A stretch of 60,228 nucleotides of DNA, taken from positions 1-60,228 of the IMG/VR virus record IMGVR_UViG_3300017971_000310. One strand, written 5' to 3'. Numbering within the stretch: position 1 is the first letter of the stretch; each line of letters starts with the position of its first letter. The notes under the pieces were generated by a model that was given only the letters and a program-made list of their open reading frames with translations, ran no database searches and was not told the DNA's origin. The position numbers and the translations under genes were made by a program. Origin of the DNA: a virus. Positions 10,867-22,033 of the stretch are shown here, in pieces.

Positions 10867-11514
10867 ATGGCTAAAATCTGGATTCGATGTCTTACTATAG
10901 TCAGGTCAACCGATCAACATGGCAGGCCCTCAGTCTACCATCCTGGGGATTGGGCCAAGGTTGGCAAACATGAGGCCCGTCAATTAGTTGCACAGGGAAG
11001 CGCTGAAATACCTAATGTGCAGACTAGGCAGACTGCGTATGATTGGTACGATTGCGGGGTAGTTCTTAGGGGGAATACGGCTCCTGGACGTGCTGCCCTG
11101 GAGAAGCATTATCCTGGGCTAAACGTCACAAATGGTGGATTAGATCTAACATACTCTAGAAATCTACTATGGGATGCCACATCAAAAATGAATATGCGCT
11201 TCTTACCCGTTGGGTACGAACGGATGGTTAATGGCTGGCAGATGGCTGTGCCTCTAGTGGACTATGACCTATTAGCCACAGATATCGGTACAGAGGAGGA
11301 ACGGGCTTATACGAAATCTATAATACGGGATTTGCGTGTACCAGTGTACGACACGAATATTATATTTGCTGTAAGATGTAATGATGTCCAGGCTTGGTTA
11401 GATAGTTGGAAACAGGAACAGAAGAAGGGTGGGGATATACGTCTATCGTTCTTACGGGCGTTATATATAACTAAGCCAATCATATGTGCGTTGCCGGTGA
11501 CTTGGAAACAATGA
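10867..11514 (+). CDS. Hypothetical protein, first gene of the glycan cassette
   Basis: A 215-residue protein, probably cytoplasmic. 'YHPGDWAKVGKHEARQLVAQGSAEIP' near residues 24-50 resembles small beta-domains seen in phage head-tail proteins; the rest is not recognised. No ribosome-binding site is visible before ATG 10867. The stop overlaps the next ATG (ATGA), so it is coupled to the first glycosyltransferase. It may take part in glycan transfer or be a structural protein left in front of the cassette. Confidence 0.55.
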   Translation: MAKIWIRCLTIVRSTDQHGRPSVYHPGDWAKVGKHEARQLVAQGSAEIPNVQTRQTAYDWYDCGVVLRGNTAPGRAALEKHYPGLNVTNGGLDLTYSRNLLWDATSKMNMRFLPVGYERMVNGWQMAVPLVDYDLLATDIGTEEERAYTKSIIRDLRVPVYDTNIIFAVRCNDVQAWLDSWKQEQKKGGDIRLSFLRALYITKPIICALPVTWKQ

Positions 11515-12434
11515 GAATAATTGCGTATCCGTTGGGAGACTTGAATACAGCGTCTTCTAGGTATAGGGCATACTGGCCAGCAGAAGAGCTTGGGGGCAAG
11601 CGGTTTGCTGTTGCCACGACGGATAATGACTGGGAACAATCTACCATTGTAATGTTTCAACGTGCCTGTACTGTAGCCTATCAAGATATAGCCAAGCGGG
11701 CACATAATACCAGGAAGTTTGTAGTATACGATTACACAGATTTCTATTGGAGGACTGTTGGCGTAGATAAACCCCCAGATAGTGGGGAACTTAAAATGGT
11801 ACAGTATGCCGATCTGTTGACGTGTTGTAACCAGGATGATGCGTGGCTACTACGTCGTACGTTTAATAAGCCAGTCCGTATCCTACCAAATATGCAGAAA
11901 TTATCTCTTTACGTAAAGCAGAAAGTCTACGAAAAGACAGATTGCCCTGTGGTGTTGTGGGTAGGATACAACCATAATATTCGGGCACTGAAATCCATGT
12001 GGGCAGGATTACAGGAAGTTGCTAATAAGGGAATACAGTTTTCTGTTCTAATTGTCAATAACGATGGGGTAGTTCCCAAGCTGGTTCTACCACGCAATAT
12101 AGAGGCAGTTCCATGGTCCTTAAAGAATCTAGGCGATATTATGTGTAGAGGGGATGTGGCAATAAATCCACAGATACCTTGTGCTAATGGTAGATACTAC
12201 AAGGACAATAATAAGAGTGTAACCGCTTGGGCACATGGGTTGGCCTGTTTATCTTTTGATGAGGTAAAGAATTGGGCCAGGGAATTAGAGTGGCCATTGA
12301 TAGATCGAGACAATAGGGCAGAAGAGGGGGAGTATAACAGACTGCGGGCAAGGGATTATGACGTCAGTGTTATGGCTCCTAAGTGGTGGGATATATTGGT
12401 GGAGGAATACCAGTGGTGGAAAGGTCCCCGCTAA
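11511..12434 (+). CDS. Glycosyltransferase, GT4-like
   Basis: A protein of 307 residues; ATG 11511 is chosen because it overlaps the preceding TGA. The opening 'MRIIAYPLGDLNTASSRYRAYWPAEEL' and the central 'VLWVGYNHNIRALKSMWAGLQ' and 'VPWSLKNLGDIMCRGDVAINPQ' match the two Rossmann domains of GT-B glycosyltransferases. The C-terminal donor site (SVTAWAHGLACLS) replaces the usual E-x7-E pattern. It probably transfers a sugar from a nucleotide-sugar donor. The acceptor is unknown. Confidence 0.7.
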   Translation: MRIIAYPLGDLNTASSRYRAYWPAEELGGKRFAVATTDNDWEQSTIVMFQRACTVAYQDIAKRAHNTRKFVVYDYTDFYWRTVGVDKPPDSGELKMVQYADLLTCCNQDDAWLLRRTFNKPVRILPNMQKLSLYVKQKVYEKTDCPVVLWVGYNHNIRALKSMWAGLQEVANKGIQFSVLIVNNDGVVPKLVLPRNIEAVPWSLKNLGDIMCRGDVAINPQIPCANGRYYKDNNKSVTAWAHGLACLSFDEVKNWARELEWPLIDRDNRAEEGEYNRLRARDYDVSVMAPKWWDILVEEYQWWKGPR

Positions 12435-12790
12435 AAATAGTATCGGATAGGCGAGGTTCCCTGGCAGAACTTTTTAGAGGAGATTGGGGACAGGTAAATG
12501 TGGTGGAAGTTTCCCCTGGCGCTTTGAGAGGCTGCCATAGACATAACAAGACAAATGAAGCTTGGGCATTTCTATATGGGATGGGTGTATTATACATGGA
12601 AGGGGAACACGGTACAGTAGAACGTATAGATGTATCCAGAGGCGACCATATATTTCTGCCTGCTGGTACGGGCCACGCCATTCGGAACACGGGACCGGAA
12701 TTATTGGTATTTGTCTATTATATGGATCATATGTATAACCAGGAGAATCCAGATAAGGAACCATGGCTAGTAGAGGAGTTGTTTACGTAG
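12413..12790 (+). CDS. Cupin sugar isomerase/epimerase-like protein (FdtA/WxcM-like)
   Basis: A protein of 125 residues from GTG 12413, which has GGAGG seven bases upstream. The double-stranded beta-helix is evident: 'DRRGSLAELFRGDWGQVNVVEVSPGALRGCHRH' and 'GDHIFLPAGTGHAIRN'. This is the pattern of sugar 3,4-ketoisomerases and dTDP-4-dehydrorhamnose epimerase-like cupins acting on nucleotide-linked deoxysugars. It overlaps both flanking genes. It probably prepares a sugar for the neighbouring transferases. Confidence 0.7.
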   Translation: MVERSPLKIVSDRRGSLAELFRGDWGQVNVVEVSPGALRGCHRHNKTNEAWAFLYGMGVLYMEGEHGTVERIDVSRGDHIFLPAGTGHAIRNTGPELLVFVYYMDHMYNQENPDKEPWLVEELFT

Positions 12791-13362
12791 CTGTTGGCCC
12801 CAATGCTAAGGAAGAGGCAAAAAAGAGCATACGAACATTGAGACGTCATAATAATCTAGATGTGCAGGTTATATCCGATGGGCTGATTAATGGGTGTAAT
12901 ACAGTTACATTCAATAATCCGGGGCGTGGGGCACGACGGGCAAAGTTGAGCATACATAATCTCGTGCCATGGGATAATGTACTGTATATAGATGCAGATA
13001 CCAGAGTACATGGGAACTTAGAGGTTGGATTCGATATATTGGAGGATGGTTGGGATCTTGTTATAGTGCCAAGTGAAAATCAGAATGAGAATGCGTTATG
13101 GCACGTCAGAGAGGAGGAGCGGGAAGCAACCTTACAAGTAGTTCCTGCCCCCTTGCAGTTACAGGGCGGCTTGTTCTGGTTCAATAGAGAACGTTGCAAA
13201 TATATGTTTGATGGTTGGCTGGATGAGTGGTTACGTTGGTCCGGTAAAGATCAAGCTGCTTTGTTAAGGGCATTAGAAAAAGAGCATGTTAAGATATGGC
13301 TTATGGGTAGACCGTTCAATGGGGGTAGCGTAGTAGAGCATCTATTTGGGAGGGCACGGTGA
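12763..13362 (+). CDS. Glycosyltransferase, GT8-like with DxD motif
   Basis: A 199-residue protein with the GT-A pattern: 'VVYVAVGPNAKEEAKKSIRTLRR' at the N-terminus, Asp77-Ala-Asp79 in 'VLYIDADTRVHG' for metal and nucleotide-sugar binding, and 'LQGGLFWFNRERC' with 'GKDQAALLRALEKE' in the acceptor half. These fit short GT8-like transferases of phages and bacteria. Its start overlaps the cupin gene. The C-terminal half of the 14921-16558 protein and the fragment at 57074-57247 look related. Confidence 0.7.
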   Translation: MASRGVVYVAVGPNAKEEAKKSIRTLRRHNNLDVQVISDGLINGCNTVTFNNPGRGARRAKLSIHNLVPWDNVLYIDADTRVHGNLEVGFDILEDGWDLVIVPSENQNENALWHVREEEREATLQVVPAPLQLQGGLFWFNRERCKYMFDGWLDEWLRWSGKDQAALLRALEKEHVKIWLMGRPFNGGSVVEHLFGRAR

Positions 13363-14051
13363 TACCTGACATCTTTATGATGACATATAACCGCCCACAA
13401 ATGTTATCCAGAACGGTTCAATGTCTATACGATCGTACTACTACGCCATTTAATTTACATATAGTGGATGATGGTAGTTATGCTGGTCAGATTGTGCTGT
13501 TAGGTTTATGGGGAGACGGCAAGGCCAAGACAATAGTTATGCGAGAAACCAATAGAGGGGTTCCGTATAATATTAGATTAATGGCTACCCTAACAGAAAG
13601 CGACCCAGTGATACTAATGGGAGACGACCATTTATGTCCACTGGTAGAACCGGATTGGTTGACTCGTGGTCTTATGGCTATGGATGAGAATCTCAATATG
13701 GGCATGTTAGCGTTGAACGACCCATCCTGTAATACTAACAACAGACGACACGTCAAGGAACGTGCTAAGCCCATCACAATCTGTGAGTTTGTCGGTGGTA
13801 CGTTTCTATTCATACGCAGGGAAATTATAGAGTCATTTGTCTACCCGAAAGCTTGGGAGGCTATACAATCTCCATTGAAGAGCTGGGCTAATCATACAAG
13901 AGAGCTTGGGTATGATGTAGGGTATCTTGTGGATACTTATTGTCAACATATTGGGAAATTCTCGGCTAGGATGGGAACAGATATAAGCGAACATCTAATC
14001 GAACCGATAGATCCTGTAACATTGGAGCCAGCAGAAGAATATGCCTGGTAA
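13359..14051 (+). CDS. Glycosyltransferase family 2-like
   Basis: A 230-residue GT-A protein from GTG 13359 (GTGA overlap with the previous stop). 'DIFMMTYNRPQMLSRTVQCLYDRT' and 'LHIVDDGSY' are the classic GT2 N-terminal strand and first Asp pair. 'VILMGDDHLCP' holds the DxD-like metal site, and 'FVGGTFLFIRREI' is the acceptor-side motif. It probably transfers a sugar in the same pathway as its neighbours. Confidence 0.75.
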   Translation: MIPDIFMMTYNRPQMLSRTVQCLYDRTTTPFNLHIVDDGSYAGQIVLLGLWGDGKAKTIVMRETNRGVPYNIRLMATLTESDPVILMGDDHLCPLVEPDWLTRGLMAMDENLNMGMLALNDPSCNTNNRRHVKERAKPITICEFVGGTFLFIRREIIESFVYPKAWEAIQSPLKSWANHTRELGYDVGYLVDTYCQHIGKFSARMGTDISEHLIEPIDPVTLEPAEEYAW

Positions 14052-14943
14052 CATACTATTCATAGGGGGAACGGGCAGGTGTGGTACTACCCTGTTGCGC
14101 GACTGTTTATGTAAACATCCGGATATGACCACTACACCATATAAGTGGAGATTCATAAACGATCCCGATGGCCTGGTCGATTTCTGTTCCGGTACTGCAT
14201 CGACGTGGTCTCCCTACATCTACGATGCGAAATTAAAAAGGCTAGAGAAGCTATTCAGTCTACTGGAATATAAATGTGGTGATGGACCTTATTGGGACTA
14301 TGCCCTGGGAATGTGGCTACCTAATTACAGACGTCACGTGGATACGCTAATTGGAGAGCTTACCCAGTTTTCCTATAGCAGAGGCTGGGTGGGATCGCCC
14401 AATGTGGAAACAGCTATATATAGATACCCTGCTAGAGGATTATTGGGAGCGGTGCGGGATTTTATAACGAATATAGTGAATGATTATTTGACCCAGACTG
14501 GCGGCAGTATATTTGTGGATGCGGATACGTGGAACATACTGTTCTTCAGGGATATTTTACACATATTACCAGAGGCTAGGTTAATTCATATATGGCGGGA
14601 TCCAATAGAGACCGTATGTTCTTTGGCCGAACAGCGTTGGATGCCAGATGATATTGAGCAGGCAGCTATGATATACAGAGATTTATTGATGCGCTGGGAG
14701 GCTGTGCGACATTCAATACCATATTACACATACACCCAAATCCAATATGAGGACTTAGTAAATAAACCAGAGGAAACCTTATATAAAATATGTGATTGGA
14801 TAGGCATAGACTACACTAAAGAAATGCTACTGCCTATTGGGAGTCCGACTAGCAGGGTGGCTAATTTAGATACTATACAGGAGTTGTGTAATATAACACG
14901 TTTCACCAGGGAAGCCGGGTATGAGAGTACACATTGTCTGTGA
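14041..14943 (+). CDS. PAPS-dependent sulfotransferase
   Basis: A 300-residue protein. 'FIGGTGRCGTTLLRD' (from residue 7) is the 5'-phosphosulfate loop. 'ARLIHIWRDPIETVCSL' near residues 178-195 is the 3'-phosphate-binding motif with Arg and Ser. 'YTQIQYEDLVNKPEETLYKICDWIGI' is the conserved C-terminal element. Sulfotransferases move sulfate from PAPS to hydroxyl groups of sugars or other acceptors. Its place between glycosyltransferase genes suggests that the phage-made glycan is sulfated. Rare in phages. Confidence 0.8.
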   Translation: MPGNILFIGGTGRCGTTLLRDCLCKHPDMTTTPYKWRFINDPDGLVDFCSGTASTWSPYIYDAKLKRLEKLFSLLEYKCGDGPYWDYALGMWLPNYRRHVDTLIGELTQFSYSRGWVGSPNVETAIYRYPARGLLGAVRDFITNIVNDYLTQTGGSIFVDADTWNILFFRDILHILPEARLIHIWRDPIETVCSLAEQRWMPDDIEQAAMIYRDLLMRWEAVRHSIPYYTYTQIQYEDLVNKPEETLYKICDWIGIDYTKEMLLPIGSPTSRVANLDTIQELCNITRFTREAGYESTHCL

Positions 14944-16558
14944 ACGTCTTAATACGTCTCGCATATTACCTAGGCTAGCCAAATATTTGGCCGAACACAA
15001 TAATTGGACAGTCGGGGAGGAGCCCAGTACAGCAACAGATCTGAACTATTTTATTCCTTACATAACATGGCGTCAGCATTTTAATGGGTGGAAGAAAACT
15101 AAGCTAGCAGCATATTTTAGCCACTATGACATAAATAATAAAATGAAGGCTAAGTGGTGGCGGGAAGCGGCAGACGCCATGGATTTGTGTACCATAACAT
15201 CCAATCAATATAGGGAACTTTTGGATGCTAATAAGACAATATACGTCAGGCCCCCAGTGGAGGTCGATAGGTTCACAATAAATCCTTGGGGTAAGTCGCA
15301 AATGCCCATAGTCGGAGTGATGGGGTATGTATATGGGGATGGTCGCAAGGGGGAAGACTTAGTAGAGGAGCTACTTAAAACACCGATAGCCAATACAGTG
15401 GAATGGAGAGCTAGTGGTAGAGGCTGGCCAATTAAGACCGTCAGCTACTCATGGGAGGAATTACCCAAGTTTGTTCAGGGATTGGATGTATTATTGTGCC
15501 CATCTAAATTTGAAGGCGTGCCGATGCCGCCATTAGAGGCTTTGGCGTGTGGGGTAAAAATCGTAATCCCAATGGGTGTTGGGATGTTGGACGATCTGCC
15601 AGATATGCCGGGCATATATAGGTATGAGGCAGAGAATGTAGTCGATATGGCCCTTGCCCTAAAACGTGCATGTACTGGCACGGCCAATAGAGGGGATTTA
15701 CGTAACATAATCAAGGACACGTATACAGCGGCTACATGGTCGCAAGATCATAGAACAGGATTTGAGGAGCATTTTAGTAATGTGACAGTTGAAGCTAAGT
15801 TGCCAAAGTGGAAAGAGAGCTCTGGAGTCTATATAGTAGCGTTCGGGGAGCCCGCCAGAAAATGCGCCAACCTATGTATCGATTCTATACATAAACATAT
15901 GCCTGGCCTTCCAGTATGTTTAGCCGCCGCGGAACCACTGGGGCCAGAGGATGTATTTGTAAAACATAAGGACGCGGATATAGGGGGCCGTATAGCAAAA
16001 TTGTCCGCATACGCTTTAGCCCCCAAGGAATGGAATTATATACTGTATCTAGACGCGGATACCGAAGTTGTTGGTGATATAGGGTTTCTTTTTCAGGCGT
16101 TGCAGGATGGATGGGAATTCCTTATATGTAAGGATATGGACAAATATTCCACAGCGGTTATGATGAAACGCCCCGATAATAAAGACGAGTGTGAGGTGAC
16201 CTGGGATTTGTTAGGGGCACGAGAGGGCGCGCTACAGTATAATGGTGGAATGATGGGCTTTCGCCGCAACAAGAGAACTGCCAAGTTCTTTAATATGTGG
16301 AGAGAGGAATGGGAGCGTTGGGGCAAACGGGACCAGGGGGCCTTATTGCGGGCGTTATATAGACAGCCTTTGAGAATGTATGTATTAATGAACCAGTGGA
16401 ACGCATCAGATAGATATCCGTTGCCACCTGGCAATATAGCTATTATGCATCATAACGTAAAAGCTAGGCGCTGGGGTGGGATAGTCGATGGTAGATTAGA
16501 CTCAGCTATAGCATGGGGTAAGGTAGAAGAATGGGAGCGCCATCATGGATACAGATAA
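14921..16558 (+). CDS. Bifunctional glycosyltransferase: GT4-like plus GT8-like domains
   Basis: A 545-residue protein. Residues about 1-290 are a GT-B transferase, with 'IVGVMGYVYGDGRKGEDLVEEL' and 'GLDVLLCPSKFEGVPMPPLEALACG' carrying the E-x7-E donor site. Residues about 300-545 are a GT-A transferase with 'ILYLDADTEVVG' (DxD), 'LQYNGGMMGFRRN' and 'GKRDQGALLRALYRQ'. The second half resembles the separate transferase at 12763-13362. Such fusions usually add two sugars in sequence. The ATG overlaps the sulfotransferase stop region by 23 bases. Confidence 0.75.
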   Translation: MRVHIVCERLNTSRILPRLAKYLAEHNNWTVGEEPSTATDLNYFIPYITWRQHFNGWKKTKLAAYFSHYDINNKMKAKWWREAADAMDLCTITSNQYRELLDANKTIYVRPPVEVDRFTINPWGKSQMPIVGVMGYVYGDGRKGEDLVEELLKTPIANTVEWRASGRGWPIKTVSYSWEELPKFVQGLDVLLCPSKFEGVPMPPLEALACGVKIVIPMGVGMLDDLPDMPGIYRYEAENVVDMALALKRACTGTANRGDLRNIIKDTYTAATWSQDHRTGFEEHFSNVTVEAKLPKWKESSGVYIVAFGEPARKCANLCIDSIHKHMPGLPVCLAAAEPLGPEDVFVKHKDADIGGRIAKLSAYALAPKEWNYILYLDADTEVVGDIGFLFQALQDGWEFLICKDMDKYSTAVMMKRPDNKDECEVTWDLLGAREGALQYNGGMMGFRRNKRTAKFFNMWREEWERWGKRDQGALLRALYRQPLRMYVLMNQWNASDRYPLPPGNIAIMHHNVKARRWGGIVDGRLDSAIAWGKVEEWERHHGYR

Positions 16559-17168
16559 TAAACTAAAAGACAATCTTGTTAAAGAGCATCCAGAACTGGA
16601 GGAGATATTTCGCACAGTTAACAATCGAATTATTCGGTCTAAACGAGAGATATACGATTATCAGGCTGCGATGCTATACAAGTTGGCACTACCATATAAC
16701 TCAGAAGGTTGTAGGGCGTTAGAGATAGGATCTGCTTTTGGGTATTCTTGTTGGTTCATTGCCCATGCTATGTCAAACGCCAGGCGGATAACTACGTTGA
16801 ACCCAAAAGCCAAAGAATACCATCACACGGTTCGGGCGTTGTTACCGTTTGAGAACGTGCAGGTTATATGGATGCGGTCTTGGGATTATTTGAAATACTA
16901 CTCAAAGCCGGCATTTAATTTCATATTTGTGGATGGGGACCATGAGCAGGTTGCCAGGGACTTACCCTGGTTTAATCTCCTAAGACCGGGCGGGCTTATA
17001 TTGTTTCACGACTACGCGCCAGATGGTTCGGCTAGACCGGTCCCTACAGTGTACAATGTATTGAACGACGCCAAGCAACGGCTCAAGAGAGATTTTGATA
17101 TCTATATTGTGGATGACAATCAAGTGGGCATGGTAGGCTGGTATCGTCAAGAGGGGGAACAATTGTGA
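16545..17168 (+). CDS. SAM-dependent methyltransferase, family 24-like
   Basis: A 207-residue class I methyltransferase. 'CRALEIGSAFGYSCWFIA' is the glycine-rich SAM motif, 'FNFIFVDGDHEQVARDLPWF' the motif with Asp-Gly-Asp-His typical of family 24, and 'LRPGGLILFHDYAP' the following strand. These enzymes often methylate sugar hydroxyls. The context suggests methylation of the glycan made by neighbouring transferases. Confidence 0.75.
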   Translation: MDTDNKLKDNLVKEHPELEEIFRTVNNRIIRSKREIYDYQAAMLYKLALPYNSEGCRALEIGSAFGYSCWFIAHAMSNARRITTLNPKAKEYHHTVRALLPFENVQVIWMRSWDYLKYYSKPAFNFIFVDGDHEQVARDLPWFNLLRPGGLILFHDYAPDGSARPVPTVYNVLNDAKQRLKRDFDIYIVDDNQVGMVGWYRQEGEQL

Positions 17169-17611
17169 AGAGGCTCAATCTTGGCTGTGGCAAGGATGTT
17201 CGGGGGGATTGGATCAATCACGATATAAAACAGCACGACGCTGCTATAGATGTTGTATGGGACTTAAATAAGATACCCTGGCCCTGGGACGACAGCTCTG
17301 TAGATATGATCCACGCCATTAGCGTATTGGAGCACCTTAAGCTAACATTCATAGAATCCCTAGACGAGTGTTGGAGAATACTTAAGCCGGGAGGGGCACT
17401 TTACGTAAAGTTTCCCATCTACACTTCACCATTCATACATCATGACCCTACACATAGATGGTTCTGGGATGAGTCTACACCAAATTTTGTAGACCCGGCT
17501 ACGGATTTGGGCAAGCGATACAGTTATTATACGACTAGGAAATGGGAGACATTAGATAAGAAGGTTACGGATAAAAATTGCTGGATCACATTGAGACCAC
17601 TTAAGAAATGA
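17165..17611 (+). CDS. SAM-dependent methyltransferase, type 11-like
   Basis: A 148-residue, small class I methyltransferase. 'RLNLGCGKDVRGDWINHDI' is motif I, 'SVDMIHAISVLEHL' the acidic strand, and 'CWRILKPGGALYVKFP' the characteristic PGG turn. GTG 17165 overlaps the previous stop and the end overlaps the next ATG, so it is translationally coupled. Probably another glycan-modifying step. Confidence 0.75.
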   Translation: MKRLNLGCGKDVRGDWINHDIKQHDAAIDVVWDLNKIPWPWDDSSVDMIHAISVLEHLKLTFIESLDECWRILKPGGALYVKFPIYTSPFIHHDPTHRWFWDESTPNFVDPATDLGKRYSYYTTRKWETLDKKVTDKNCWITLRPLKK

Positions 17612-18471
17612 AGGTAGCATTAATACACAGGGAGGGACCTAGGGGAATAAATCGTTCTGTCGGATGGTGGGCGTACGATGTACCAGAGTTTGAGGTAACA
17701 CATTTCCCGGTTCCCAAGTATTCCAGACATAGTAAGAGTGAGTTCAAAGAGTTTGATATCATAATACAGGAGGATCACAAAACAAAAATAACATGGAGGG
17801 ATGACACGGATAGGCCGCCAAGATGCTATCATATTGTGGATTCGTTTAAGAGAGATCAATATCTAGACAGGCGGTATTATGCTACTGGAGCAGATTTATT
17901 ATTGGTGGATTGTGACAGTATAAAGCGGTTCAGAGATATTGCCCCAGTCAGGAGATTCAACTATTGTGTCAATGTAGAAAAGTTTTATGATATGGGTCTA
18001 GAGAGGGATATAGATATCGGATGGTATTATCGACCTAATTTTCCAGAACGTGGGGAGTTGGACCTATGGTTGAAAGGCTTTTGTAAGGAACATAATTGGG
18101 TATATAGTTCAGGGAAGCGTGTCAAAGGCAATTATGTAGAGTATCTAAACAGGACAAAGATATCTATAAATTTATGTAGATTTGACACTATGAGAACACA
18201 TAGGGTATTCGATTCCATGGCTTGTGGGTGTTGTTTGGTTACATCCCCAATTGCGTTTATAGCTGGGGAAGAACGGGAGGAAAATAAGCACTATCTAGTG
18301 TTCAGGAATTATGACCTATTAGCCAAGCATTTGATGTGGTTAATGGAGGGTAATTGGAAGGGCATAGCCGAGGCAGGAAAGGCTCTGGTGGACACATATC
18401 ATACATGGGATGTTCGGGCTAAAGAGCTTTATACTACACTGGTGAAGGAGTTTCCATGGCTAGGATCCTAA
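17608..18471 (+). CDS. Glycosyltransferase, CgeB/GT4-like
   Basis: A 287-residue protein with a GT-B C-terminal domain. 'IGWYYRPNFPERGELDLWLKGF' and 'YLNRTKISINLCRFDTMRTHRVFDSMACGCCLVTS' resemble the C-terminal domain of CgeB-type glycosyltransferases, where an N-terminal domain prepares the acceptor. Its last bases overlap the epimerase gene. The donor sugar is unknown. Confidence 0.65.
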   Translation: MKVALIHREGPRGINRSVGWWAYDVPEFEVTHFPVPKYSRHSKSEFKEFDIIIQEDHKTKITWRDDTDRPPRCYHIVDSFKRDQYLDRRYYATGADLLLVDCDSIKRFRDIAPVRRFNYCVNVEKFYDMGLERDIDIGWYYRPNFPERGELDLWLKGFCKEHNWVYSSGKRVKGNYVEYLNRTKISINLCRFDTMRTHRVFDSMACGCCLVTSPIAFIAGEEREENKHYLVFRNYDLLAKHLMWLMEGNWKGIAEAGKALVDTYHTWDVRAKELYTTLVKEFPWLGS

Positions 18472-19352
18472 TAACTGGTGGCGGTGGGTTCATAGGTGTA
18501 CATCTAGCAAACTGGTTCATTCGGTCCGGTCATCAGGTATTTGTCGTAGATGATTGCTCTAAATGGGGGGATCTATCGTTTAGATACCTGGAGGGATGTA
18601 CGCTGGTACAGGGTAGTATCTTAGACGATAGGGTTTATGGCTGGTTTCCACGTCCAAGCATAATATATCATCTAGCTGTGATACCTATAGGGCAGGCCGA
18701 AGATGAACCGTTGCGTAGCATACAGGTGAATATTGCCGGTACAATGAAGGTGGCTAATTATGCACAGCGTGTAAAGGCAGATGGGCTAGTCTATGTGTCA
18801 TCGGCTAGTATCTACGGAAATGGTCCTATTCCTAGCACAGAATATAGCGAGCCACATGTAGGGTGCATCTACGCTGCGGAGAAACTGATAGGTGAGAATA
18901 TATGTCTTAGCGCACGTTTACCTGTTACTATATTTAGATTGACTAATACGTATGGACCAGATATTGATGGGCATAAGATACGTCATAGGGGCAGTATAGG
19001 CAGAATAATTTACGCCCTATACGATGGTGGACCGTTTGCACTATTTGGGGATGGTTCACATACTAGGGATTACGTCTATATAGATGATGTAGTTAATGCC
19101 CTGGTTCGGGTGGATGGTAATGGTATATATAATGTAGGGACTGGAATAGAAACCACCTCCGCTAGATTAGTAGAGCTAATAGGAAATATAATGGGTAAGG
19201 ATGTACATATACGGCAGGCTCCCTTGCGAAGGATTGATTACATAAAACGCAGGGCGTTGGATATTAGTAGAATTAGGCGAGATTTGAATTGGGAGCCTAC
19301 GGTAGACCTAGAGACTGGGCTAGCTAGATGTGTTGCTAGTATGGAGGAATAG
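18456..19352 (+). CDS. NAD-dependent sugar epimerase/dehydratase (extended SDR)
   Basis: A 298-residue protein. 'ILITGGGGFIGVHLANWF' is the NAD(P)-binding GxxGxxG motif. Ser115-118 in 'YVSSASIYG' and Tyr139/Lys143 in 'CIYAAEK' form the SDR catalytic set. 'RLTNTYGPD' and 'DYVYIDDVVNAL' complete the nucleotide-sugar epimerase pattern. It probably converts a nucleotide sugar (UDP-, GDP- or dTDP-linked). It is the last gene of the glycan cassette. Confidence 0.85.
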   Translation: MARILITGGGGFIGVHLANWFIRSGHQVFVVDDCSKWGDLSFRYLEGCTLVQGSILDDRVYGWFPRPSIIYHLAVIPIGQAEDEPLRSIQVNIAGTMKVANYAQRVKADGLVYVSSASIYGNGPIPSTEYSEPHVGCIYAAEKLIGENICLSARLPVTIFRLTNTYGPDIDGHKIRHRGSIGRIIYALYDGGPFALFGDGSHTRDYVYIDDVVNALVRVDGNGIYNVGTGIETTSARLVELIGNIMGKDVHIRQAPLRRIDYIKRRALDISRIRRDLNWEPTVDLETGLARCVASMEE

Positions 19353-19353
19353 T

Positions 19354-20031
19354 ATGGCATATGCCACATTCACAGAATTTAAGGAGCATACAACTCTACG
19401 AGATACAAGTGGTGATAATCAGGCCAGTGTAGAAAGACTATTGGATGCGGCTAGTAGAAATATAGATCGTTTCTGTAATCGTCCAGATGGGTTCGAGGCA
19501 GATAGTTCGGCCAGTGCCAGAACATACGCTGGGTCCGGTACGCCCTATCAACGTATAGACGAGTGTATAGAAATAACTCTAATAGCAGTTAAGGATTCAG
19601 CCACAGACGATAGCTATACTAGCTGGGGGGATGATGATTGGGTAGCGTATACAGGTGATCCAAGACGTCCAGATTTTAATAGATTACCCTATACCGGAAT
19701 AATGGTCGATCCTACTGGGGGTGAGAGTGTATTCACCAGTGGGAAATTCACCACAAGAGCCGGATTTAGGCCAACAACAGAGGTATACAGAGGTGTGCCT
19801 ACGGTACAGGTTACGGCTAAATGGGGATATAGCGAAGATATACCCGAAGACATAAAAATGGCCTGTATAATGCAGGCAGCTAGGTGGTTCAAACGTATGC
19901 AAGGGAATATGGCGGATGCTGTAGCCAGCGGAGACTTTGGTATGATGATGTATGTCCAACAGCTAGATCCGGATATACAACAGCTATTAATTGCTGGACG
20001 GTATGTAAGGCCGGCAGTAGGGCTAACGTGA
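19354..20031 (+). CDS. Head-tail connector protein (gp6-like)
   Basis: A protein of 225 residues. ATG 19354 is chosen because GGAGG lies seven bases upstream. 'SVERLLDAASRNIDRFCNRP' at the N-terminus and 'EDIPEDIKMACIMQAARWFKR' near the C-terminus are typical of the helical HK97 gp6-like adaptor that docks below the portal. It resumes the virion operon after the glycan cassette. Confidence 0.7.
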   Translation: MAYATFTEFKEHTTLRDTSGDNQASVERLLDAASRNIDRFCNRPDGFEADSSASARTYAGSGTPYQRIDECIEITLIAVKDSATDDSYTSWGDDDWVAYTGDPRRPDFNRLPYTGIMVDPTGGESVFTSGKFTTRAGFRPTTEVYRGVPTVQVTAKWGYSEDIPEDIKMACIMQAARWFKRMQGNMADAVASGDFGMMMYVQQLDPDIQQLLIAGRYVRPAVGLT

Positions 20032-21566
20032 CAGGTATTAGGGTAGAAATACAGGGGCTGAAGGAAGCTCAAGCTAAGATGGAGCAGGTAGCCAGGGATG
20101 TCCATGGTACTCCTATGGTAGACGCCATGAAGCAGGCTACATTGCTAGTAGAGGGGGATGCCAAACGAAATGCCCCTGTGGACACAGGAAGATTACGGGC
20201 CAGTATAATGCCGGAGGTTCGGGTAGCTGGGGTATTTAATAGGACTGTTCAGGGTGTGGTGGGTAGCAATGTCCAATATGCGTGTATCTTTAATGCACAC
20301 ACTAATATAATCACTAAGAGTGGGGGTAAAACTATTGGACAAATAGAAGTAGGGGATTATGTTTTATCTCAGGATGGGCTATATCACAAGGTAGTAGCCA
20401 AGAATATATTCCCTGCCACGGAGAAACCGGAGCTAATAGATATAGAAGCATATTGGCGGGCGGGCCATAATCATAATATTACATTGACTATAGATCATAA
20501 AGTATTAGTGTATAGAAATGGTAGAAATAAGTGGGTTGAGGCTGGGGAATTAGAGATAGGAGATCAGTTATATCAACGTAAGAAGATAGCACACAATAAG
20601 GGTAAATCAAAGTATTCCTCCCGTATATGCATAAATTGTGGCAAAGAATATGAACGCGGGCATGGCGAGGGGAAAACTATGGGAATAAAATATTGTTCCC
20701 ACGAATGTAGATATGAGCATTGGGCCGCTGGCAATAACCCACATATAGGCAGGAAAAGGGCGGCGTCTACAAGAAAGAAAATTAGTGAACGAATTAGGGA
20801 ACGGATACAAAACGATCCTCAATCACGGTTAAATTGTATATTAGCACGCAGGGGATTTGTAACATCACACGAACAAGAAATTAAAGATTGGTTAGACGAT
20901 ATGAATGCTGAATATAAATTCCAAGAACCTATAGGAAAACACGTCGTTGACTTTTATGTACCCTCAATAAATACTATATTTGAGGCCGATGGAGCATATT
21001 GGCACCAGGATCAGCAGAAAGATATAGATCGGGACAAGAAATTACTTAGCAGCATCCCGGAGGCTTGTATATTTCACATACACTTCTATGATAATAGATT
21101 TAGCCCAGAGTTAAATACTTGTCCTATTGATAATGTGTATTATGTCCCTGTAAATCCTGGAATGTCTAGCTTCACCAATCTAGATGTTCTATGTGCGAGT
21201 GAGGTAGTAGCTTTGAGAAGATGGATATATGTAAGGCCACCAGGTAAGTGGGGGGCTAAGGTAGCAAAACTGTATGACCTATCGGTTGAAGGAATGCATT
21301 CTTTCTTTGCTAATGGGTTATTGGTATCAAACAGTCATGTTGAAATGGGAACTGGACCTGCTATTGGCAATTCAGCCTACTCCCCGCCCGCCACCAATGT
21401 GGCTGGCTGGGCACATAGGCATGGGATATCTGCCTATACTGTAGTAGAGGCTATCCGTAGGAAGGGGACTAAAGCTTACAGATACTTACAAAGGGCCGTA
21501 GAAGATAATGCCGATAGAATACAAAGTATTCTGGCAGGGGCGTTGGATAAGATAGCAGACAAATGA
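20028..21566 (+). CDS. HK97 gp10-like tail completion protein containing an intein
   Basis: A precursor of 512 residues from GTG 20028 (GTGA overlap). The N-extein (85 residues) and C-extein (77 residues) together give 162 residues, the usual size of gp10-like proteins that seal the head-tail joint. 'DAKRNAPVDTGRLRASI' and, once spliced, 'YA|SHVEMGTGPAIG' are family signatures. A 350-residue intein interrupts exactly this conserved site. If splicing fails, the product would not work. Assignment of host protein and intein is strong; activity is not tested. Confidence 0.85.
   Translation: MTGIRVEIQGLKEAQAKMEQVARDVHGTPMVDAMKQATLLVEGDAKRNAPVDTGRLRASIMPEVRVAGVFNRTVQGVVGSNVQYACIFNAHTNIITKSGGKTIGQIEVGDYVLSQDGLYHKVVAKNIFPATEKPELIDIEAYWRAGHNHNITLTIDHKVLVYRNGRNKWVEAGELEIGDQLYQRKKIAHNKGKSKYSSRICINCGKEYERGHGEGKTMGIKYCSHECRYEHWAAGNNPHIGRKRAASTRKKISERIRERIQNDPQSRLNCILARRGFVTSHEQEIKDWLDDMNAEYKFQEPIGKHVVDFYVPSINTIFEADGAYWHQDQQKDIDRDKKLLSSIPEACIFHIHFYDNRFSPELNTCPIDNVYYVPVNPGMSSFTNLDVLCASEVVALRRWIYVRPPGKWGAKVAKLYDLSVEGMHSFFANGLLVSNSHVEMGTGPAIGNSAYSPPATNVAGWAHRHGISAYTVVEAIRRKGTKAYRYLQRAVEDNADRIQSILAGALDKIADK
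20283..21332 (+). mobile_element. Intein with NUMOD3-like and EDxHD (Vsr-like) homing endonuclease
   Basis: The intein starts at Cys1 ('CIFNAHTNIITKSGGKTIG', block A) and has block B 'NITLTIDHKVLVY'. It ends in 'HSFFANGLLVSN', followed by extein Ser. The penultimate residue is Ser where His is normal. Inserted between the Hint halves are a CxxC...CxxxC zinc finger (about precursor residues 199-235), a NUMOD3-like segment 'NNPHIGRKRAASTRKKISER' and a Vsr-like nuclease core. The core has Glu319, Asp321 and His326 in 'FEADGAYWH' and a downstream Asp-rich helix. This is the EDxHD class of homing endonuclease. Confidence 0.85.
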
Positions 21567-22033
21567 CTACATATAACCTGAGCGATATAATCGATTCTAT
21601 TGAAGAAGCTTTAAGTGTGGCGGCCTCCTTAAATGCGTCACAGTCCTACGACGAGTTAACAGAGGCTATAATGGACCCACCCACATTACAGGTATATCCA
21701 GACGAAGGTGGGGCCAGTGAGTATTCCGACACGGATAGAATAACATTAGGTAATAGAACAACCAGCAAAAAGCATAGTGTCAAGGTCTATACAATCTTCG
21801 TTGATTTATTAGCCAAACAGCGGGCCAATATCGGAGAGGATATGAAAACCCTGGTGGATTGTATAGACGAGATAGAGGACATACTAGATACCCAGGATTA
21901 TCCGGTGTTCGATAACGATAACATTATATCGTTTAGTTGGGAGCCTTGGCGTAGGGTATTGTATACGTATTCCAATATAGATTATGTGGGGGCACGGTTC
22001 ACATTAACTGTTAGGTGTGGGAGGACTGAATGA
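21563..22033 (+). CDS. Putative tail terminator or completion protein
   Basis: A 156-residue protein overlapping both neighbours by four bases. 'LQVYPDEGGASEYSDTDRITLGN' followed by 'HSVKVYTIFVDLLAKQRANIGEDMKTLVDCIDEIEDIL' resembles the alpha/beta tail terminator proteins that follow gp10-like genes in siphophages. Placement immediately before the tail tube genes supports this. Sequence motifs in this family are weak. Confidence 0.5.
   Translation: MTTYNLSDIIDSIEEALSVAASLNASQSYDELTEAIMDPPTLQVYPDEGGASEYSDTDRITLGNRTTSKKHSVKVYTIFVDLLAKQRANIGEDMKTLVDCIDEIEDILDTQDYPVFDNDNIISFSWEPWRRVLYTYSNIDYVGARFTLTVRCGRTE

Follow-up and report, generated by a model that had tools for sequence, protein, structure and literature searches.

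Positions 20283-21332 of the viral DNA analyzed here (IMG/VR record IMGVR_UViG_3300017971_000310, all 60,228 nucleotides of which are referred to as the window) encode, as judged from sequence profiles and a structural model, an intein inside the gene for a gp10-like tail completion protein (TCP). It is highly probable that this is a class 1 homing intein specialized for one codon stretch of the phage TCP gene. An earlier sequence-only reading had proposed an intein with exactly these boundaries in a gp10-like gene, and both proposals are borne out by Hint and intein profiles, by profiles of the host protein, and by intein-free relatives. The gene is one open frame from a GTG codon at position 20028 to a stop codon at 21566, in which 85 amino acids precede and 77 amino acids follow the 350-amino-acid insert, and the insert contains no frameshift or stop. 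The features of the region are as follows.

19354..20031, + strand: head-tail adaptor gene, the upstream neighbor, with its start set at the first ATG that follows the GTG listed at 19330 (phrog_442, 5e-17).
20028..20282, + strand: N-extein of the gp10-like TCP, 85 amino acids, GTG start, ending in VQYA (phrog_5, PF04883).
20283..21332, + strand: predicted intein, 350 amino acids, Cys1 to Asn350 (CIFNAHTN...LLVSN), stop-free (profiles, family alignment, model).
20283..20582, + strand: N-terminal Hint half, residues 1-100, with block A Cys1 and block B T69-x-x-H72 (PT-HINT match over residues 9-100).
20628..20708, + strand: zinc-finger-like segment, C116, C119, C138, and C142 (invariant in 16/16 nuclease-bearing members; low model confidence).
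20736..20813, + strand: NUMOD3-like DNA-binding stretch beginning NPHIGRKR, residues 152-177 (Pfam NUMOD3 in 3/21 members; helix at 161-177 in the model).
20862..21092, + strand: Vsr/EDxHD-type nuclease core, residues 194-270 (DUF559, PDB 3r3p, Vsr, invariant residues).
21129..21332, + strand: C-terminal part of the Hint domain, residues 283-350, which carries H339 of block F and the terminal Ser349-Asn350 (TIGR01443; kept in the mini-intein L265).
21333..21566, + strand: C-extein beginning SHVEMGTG, with the +1 Ser, plus the stop codon (alignment to intein-free relatives).
21563..22033, + strand: downstream neighbor in the tail terminator position (by gene order only; homologs follow the TCP gene in L084, L093, L099, and L105).

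In profile searches, the host protein is hit by phrog_5, annotated as "tail completion or Neck1" (6e-15, with the window's match at profile positions 88-168), and by the Pfam profile PF04883, HK97-gp10 (7e-6). Its gene stands in the order adaptor, TCP, next tail gene, and both the small tail genes and the one for the tape measure lie further downstream. By profile match and gene order, the host gene is a predicted HK97-gp10-like TCP ("Neck1"), a group that comprises HK97 gp10, lambda gpZ, and SPP1 gp16.1 (PMC11661146). The earlier designation "head-tail connector" was right in pointing to a gp10-like structural protein, but the label itself is better replaced by tail completion protein (PMC11661146, PMC11099176). 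The structural module is interrupted at window 10867-19352, where a block of sugar-metabolism-like genes (glycosyltransferases, methyltransferase-like, and epimerase-like) separates the major capsid gene from that of the head-tail adaptor. A 9.9-kb contig (L081), which stops short of the TCP gene, carries a major capsid gene whose product is 100% identical to that of the window; the contig therefore represents the same or a near-identical virus assembled elsewhere.

The insert bears the marks of a class 1 intein, namely Cys1, the block B TxxH, the block F His, a C-terminal Asn, and a +1 Ser. It is matched by PF14890 Intein_splicing (4e-8, slightly below Pfam's own cut-off), PF07591 PT-HINT (6e-7), TIGR01443 for the intein C-terminus (2e-5), PF04480 DUF559 (5e-7), and the I-Bth0305I nuclease (PDB 3r3p; 0.002 with the insert alone and 1.7e-6 with the family profile). 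Hint, NUMOD3, and DUF559/Vsr, the profiles that had been suggested as a check, are all recognized in the window or in the family described below. The usual penultimate His is absent, and Ser349 occupies its place, as the sequence-only reading had noticed; a penultimate His is usual in inteins but not universal, and hence is not a defining character. A toxin-type PT-HINT, suggested by nothing more than the name of the profile, was rejected as the identity of the insert, since no toxin domain was detected and its C-terminus is that of a splicing intein; a free-standing Hint protein was considered and dropped. Two PHROG families of unknown function with ~700 positions, phrog_21587 and phrog_36001, match the N-terminal Hint part of TCP-site inteins and may have been built from intein-containing precursors.

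An AlphaFold2 model computed from 21 sequences reached a mean pLDDT of 83.8 and a pTM of 0.71, with a pLDDT of 92-95 in the N-terminal Hint part and low values in the zinc-finger stretch; prediction from the single sequence gave a pLDDT of 35 and was unusable. Against solved structures, residues 1..350 of the model match hedgehog and intein Hint domains, and the Mtu RecA intein is matched with a Z of 18.6 and an rmsd of 1.8 over 132 residues. Both ends of the insert are thus predicted to combine into one Hint fold, the absence of which from a model had been named in advance as evidence against an intein. Because the Hint domain fills the Foldseek/VIA lists against solved structures, the nuclease fold was assessed through sequence profiles.

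The window reads YA/SHVEMGTG across the insertion point (marked here by a slash), in agreement with the conserved YA/ site proposed previously. The corresponding junction, YA/xxxE-x-GT, is uninterrupted in 7 GenBank phage homologs and in 63 distinct homologs from viral contigs, and both flanks of the insert align contiguously to intein-free gp10/Neck1 proteins. In a site alignment of 65 rows, including the window and one truncated row, Tyr84 is found in 59, Ala85 in 61, and Glu89 in 55, so that few motifs of the TCP are as well conserved as the one that the intein occupies. The +1 residue is Ser in the window, whereas it is Pro in 45 of the intein-free relatives and Ser or Thr in just two distant ones; the splicing nucleophile is therefore present exactly where the TCP family normally has none. 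The window virus's own relatives, represented by the 63 distinct TCPs from viral contigs, are devoid of the intein. An intein-free allele more than 60% identical to the window's TCP was not found, the closest relatives reaching up to 57%, and we thus infer the insertion into the window's lineage from relatives at or below this value. Different inteins occur in two relatives of the window: a LAGLIDADG-looking insert with a zinc finger in the portal gene of L125 (record G006), and another intein in a terminase-like gene of L123 (record G010). In the latter record there are, in addition, two EDxHD genes that stand free and in which several zinc-finger-like motifs occur.

Used alone as a query, the intein retrieved no relatives from viral_contigs, genome_contigs, or phages at an E-value of 1e-3, and at E-values of up to 10 it retrieved only weak matches to the Hint part, in phages and plasmids. 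Pattern searches of the junction in which E-x-GTG (and VHN or NG...N) had to be present yielded no further intein because they were too strict, members of the family reading GTS, GTR, GTK, or HGH; a match of L002 as an extein was spurious. The family was uncovered after two free-standing EDxHD genes from window-related viruses had been added to the query. With near copies left out, it comprises 15 further full-length inteins, which are 39-48% identical to that of the window and lie at the homologous TCP position, together with one mini-intein (L265, 169 amino acids) and partial copies at the same site. This arrangement is found in at least 16 distinct viral sequences, a recurrence that excludes chance. 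All ten of the host genes tested match phrog_5 Neck1, and several of these matches end or restart at profile positions 168-170. The family profile recovers its own members in virus records; it gave no match in ~790 sampled prokaryote genomes, a result of little weight since the phyla were picked arbitrarily and the genomes included no positive control.

Cys1, T69, H72, D332, H339, Ser349, Asn350, and Ser+1 are identical in 17/17 sequences (the 16 full-length inteins and the mini-intein), and two partial copies likewise end in Ser-Asn, one of them with a +1 Cys. The penultimate residue is Ser in all 19 family copies with a readable C-terminus and His in none; as far as the family alignment goes, this Ser is a fixed trait and not a defect. 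In the mini-intein (L265 2547-3053), the nuclease block alone is cleanly missing, whereas the two Hint parts and the terminal Ser-Asn are retained, a loss that would fit, as expected, a late stage of the homing cycle.

The zinc finger, NUMOD3-like segment, and Vsr-like core described in the sequence-only reading are all recovered: DUF559 is recognized in 20/21 family members, Vsr in 6/21, and Pfam NUMOD3 in 3/21, and the four zinc-finger Cys, D223, E234, H241, D247, R250, D251, H265, and H267 are invariant in all 16 nuclease-bearing members. E197, at which the first Glu of EDxHD would be expected, is kept in 14/16, and the candidates for the remaining letters of E-D-x-H-D (D223, H241, D247, and D251) in 16/16, an assignment that follows what we take to be the Vsr pattern, which presumably also gives the catalytic letters to D223 and H241. 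The earlier proposal was a core of Glu319, Asp321, and His326, precursor numbers that correspond to E234, D236, and H241 of the intein. All three residues are present, but they are unlikely to form the catalytic set: since D223, E234, and H241 are invariant, and Asn replaces D236 in one member (L250) as well as in L123's free-standing nuclease, the likely set is D223 (D308 of the precursor) and H241, with E234 nearby. E319 and H326 would therefore be retained, and D321 would not. In the closest pairs, dN/dS is 0.03-0.12 in the Hint part and 0.06-0.09 in the nuclease block where computable, with dS high or saturated. The low ratios and the invariance would fit a homing element under continuing selection on its predicted splicing and cleavage.

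In compared stretches of 4-13 kb, the window's relatives have 6-11 neighboring proteins in common with it and no intein; the intein carriers have 0-1 neighboring genes in common with it. Of 136 pairs, 124 are more alike in their inteins than in their exteins (median identity 44% vs 29%), with alignments that are crude and, for some pairs, short, and faster extein evolution could be an alternative cause of this excess. In a tree, a branch with 100/100 support separates the TCP inteins from the MuF inteins L216 and L218. That at least 15 viruses, largely unrelated to one another, carry the intein at the same site suggests a selfish element specialized for a virion-assembly gene.

The motifs suggest a pathway in which Cys1 would form the N-terminal thioester with the assistance of T69-x-x-H72, the chain would then be transferred to Ser+1, and Asn350 would cyclize, the block-F His339 most likely standing in for the missing penultimate His, to leave an intact TCP. 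Such a role of the block-F His has been argued for other inteins (PMC5050341). As homology and distribution suggest, the zinc-finger/NUMOD3/EDxHD nuclease would cut intein-free TCP genes within the YA/xxxE-x-GT codons, and repair would copy the intein into the cut gene, probably along with the +1 Ser codon, since intein-free genes usually encode Pro there. The Ser in place of the usual His and the sub-threshold Pfam Intein_splicing score could also be taken as signs of a decayed intein or Hint-like domain, in which splicing was lost with the penultimate His and the TCP gene is broken. However, Ser is fixed in 19/19 copies, all other splicing residues checked are invariant, the reading frame of the insert is undamaged, and the TCP is essential in studied phages (PMC11099176); furthermore, a phage intein with a penultimate Gly splices completely, and a restored His slows its splicing (PMC5050341), so that decay is very improbable. 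An artefact of sequencing or a chimeric assembly, by which an intein and a TCP gene were falsely joined, might be suspected from the occurrence of the exact window sequence in one contig only. It has a negligible probability, being refuted by contigs that were assembled independently from many samples and show the same arrangement at the same codon.

Two further alternatives accept splicing, and both appear unlikely to a similar degree. In one, the endonuclease is dead and the intein is vertically inherited, as the variation of E197 and the existence of a mini-intein might suggest; against this, D223, E234, H241, and the four zinc-finger Cys are invariant at ~40% identity with low dN/dS, and the intein is missing from the relatives of the virus itself, while viruses with almost no neighboring genes in common do carry it. 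In the other, the intein is kept, beyond selfishness, for a regulatory role in which tail completion would be held back until splicing is favored by the conditions. The fixed Ser-Asn end could tune the splicing rate, and a penultimate substitution altered precursor accumulation in a phage intein (PMC5050341), but the patchy distribution and the absence from the virus's own relatives fit a selfish element without regulation. The reading as a homing intein specialized for the TCP codons is therefore preferred.

The genes in which inteins are usually described are those for DNA metabolism, terminase, and portal, and the sequence-only reading regarded the structural-gene location as unusual. The location stands, but its unusualness is limited, since inteins in virion genes (portal, MuF-like) are already known, as are non-His penultimate residues and EDxHD nucleases in mobile elements (PMC3943268). 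What is new here is a predicted TCP-specific EDxHD intein family with a Ser-Asn end fixed in all readable copies. In the open full-text literature searched, which covers few subscription papers, neither such a family nor any intein in a tail completion protein was found to be described. A homing element can evidently track one virion-protein motif across viruses whose TCPs are just ~25-40% identical, which would make the codons around YA/xxxE-x-GT a target constrained enough for a parasite to rely on. The 16 natural full-length sequences and the nuclease-less one provide material for studying Asn cyclization without a penultimate His, and the family offers contiguous inteins with EDxHD nucleases as well as tags for locating mis-annotated TCP genes.

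The window's intein has in common with the Mtu RecA intein the Hint fold, Cys1, TxxH, the C-terminal Asn, a nuclease in the middle of the Hint domain, and site specificity. By contrast, it ends in Ser-Asn, not in His-Asn as do class 1 inteins such as Mtu RecA, and its nuclease is of the Vsr/EDxHD type, whereas the Mtu RecA intein carries a LAGLIDADG nuclease. The Vsr-like core of I-Bth0305I (PDB 3r3p), an enzyme whose gene lies in a group I intron of recA, aligns with that of the window over 65 residues; unlike I-Bth0305I, the window's nuclease is part of a continuous intein, one that interrupts a virion gene, and is accompanied by a zinc finger. EDxHD homing endonucleases were reportedly treated by Dassa et al. 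in 2009 and by Taylor et al. in 2011. Such enzymes have an elongated architecture with extra DNA-binding modules (PMC3943268), as does that of the window.

Mycobacteriophage inteins (Kelley et al., 2016; PMC5050341) include some in the portal gene and many without a penultimate His; they differ from the present family in occupying other genes, with no TCP among those noted from that survey, and in a penultimate residue that varies, in contrast to the fixed Ser here. The inteins in the MuF-like proteins of Gordonia Vividuovirus (gp15) and Vibrio phage 1.265.O are matched in the Hint part only. Both Gordonia phage Barsten gp15 (head morphogenesis; L011 1631-4738) and gene 07 of Vibrio phage 1.265.O (L013 1221-3314) contain intein-like inserts ending HN/CR that are unannotated as inteins. 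One MuF-like ORF (L216 1-3540) apparently harbors two inteins, CFPIGTRV...GILVHN/CEFC and HPPLHPM/CFVD...FVVHN/CRC, the second of which carries an EDxHD nuclease. The MuF-like inteins L216-L219 resemble that of the window in domain order, EDxHD nuclease, and location in a virion gene, at 25-31% identity, and differ in host gene, in a site ending /CRC, and in a His-Asn end. It is reasonably probable, though less assured than the specialization for the TCP gene itself, that a distinct EDxHD intein lineage has specialized on the virion-assembly genes of tailed viruses (TCP, with a fixed Ser-Asn, and MuF-like, with His-Asn), whose products evolve fast, and moves between largely unrelated viruses via a few conserved codons.
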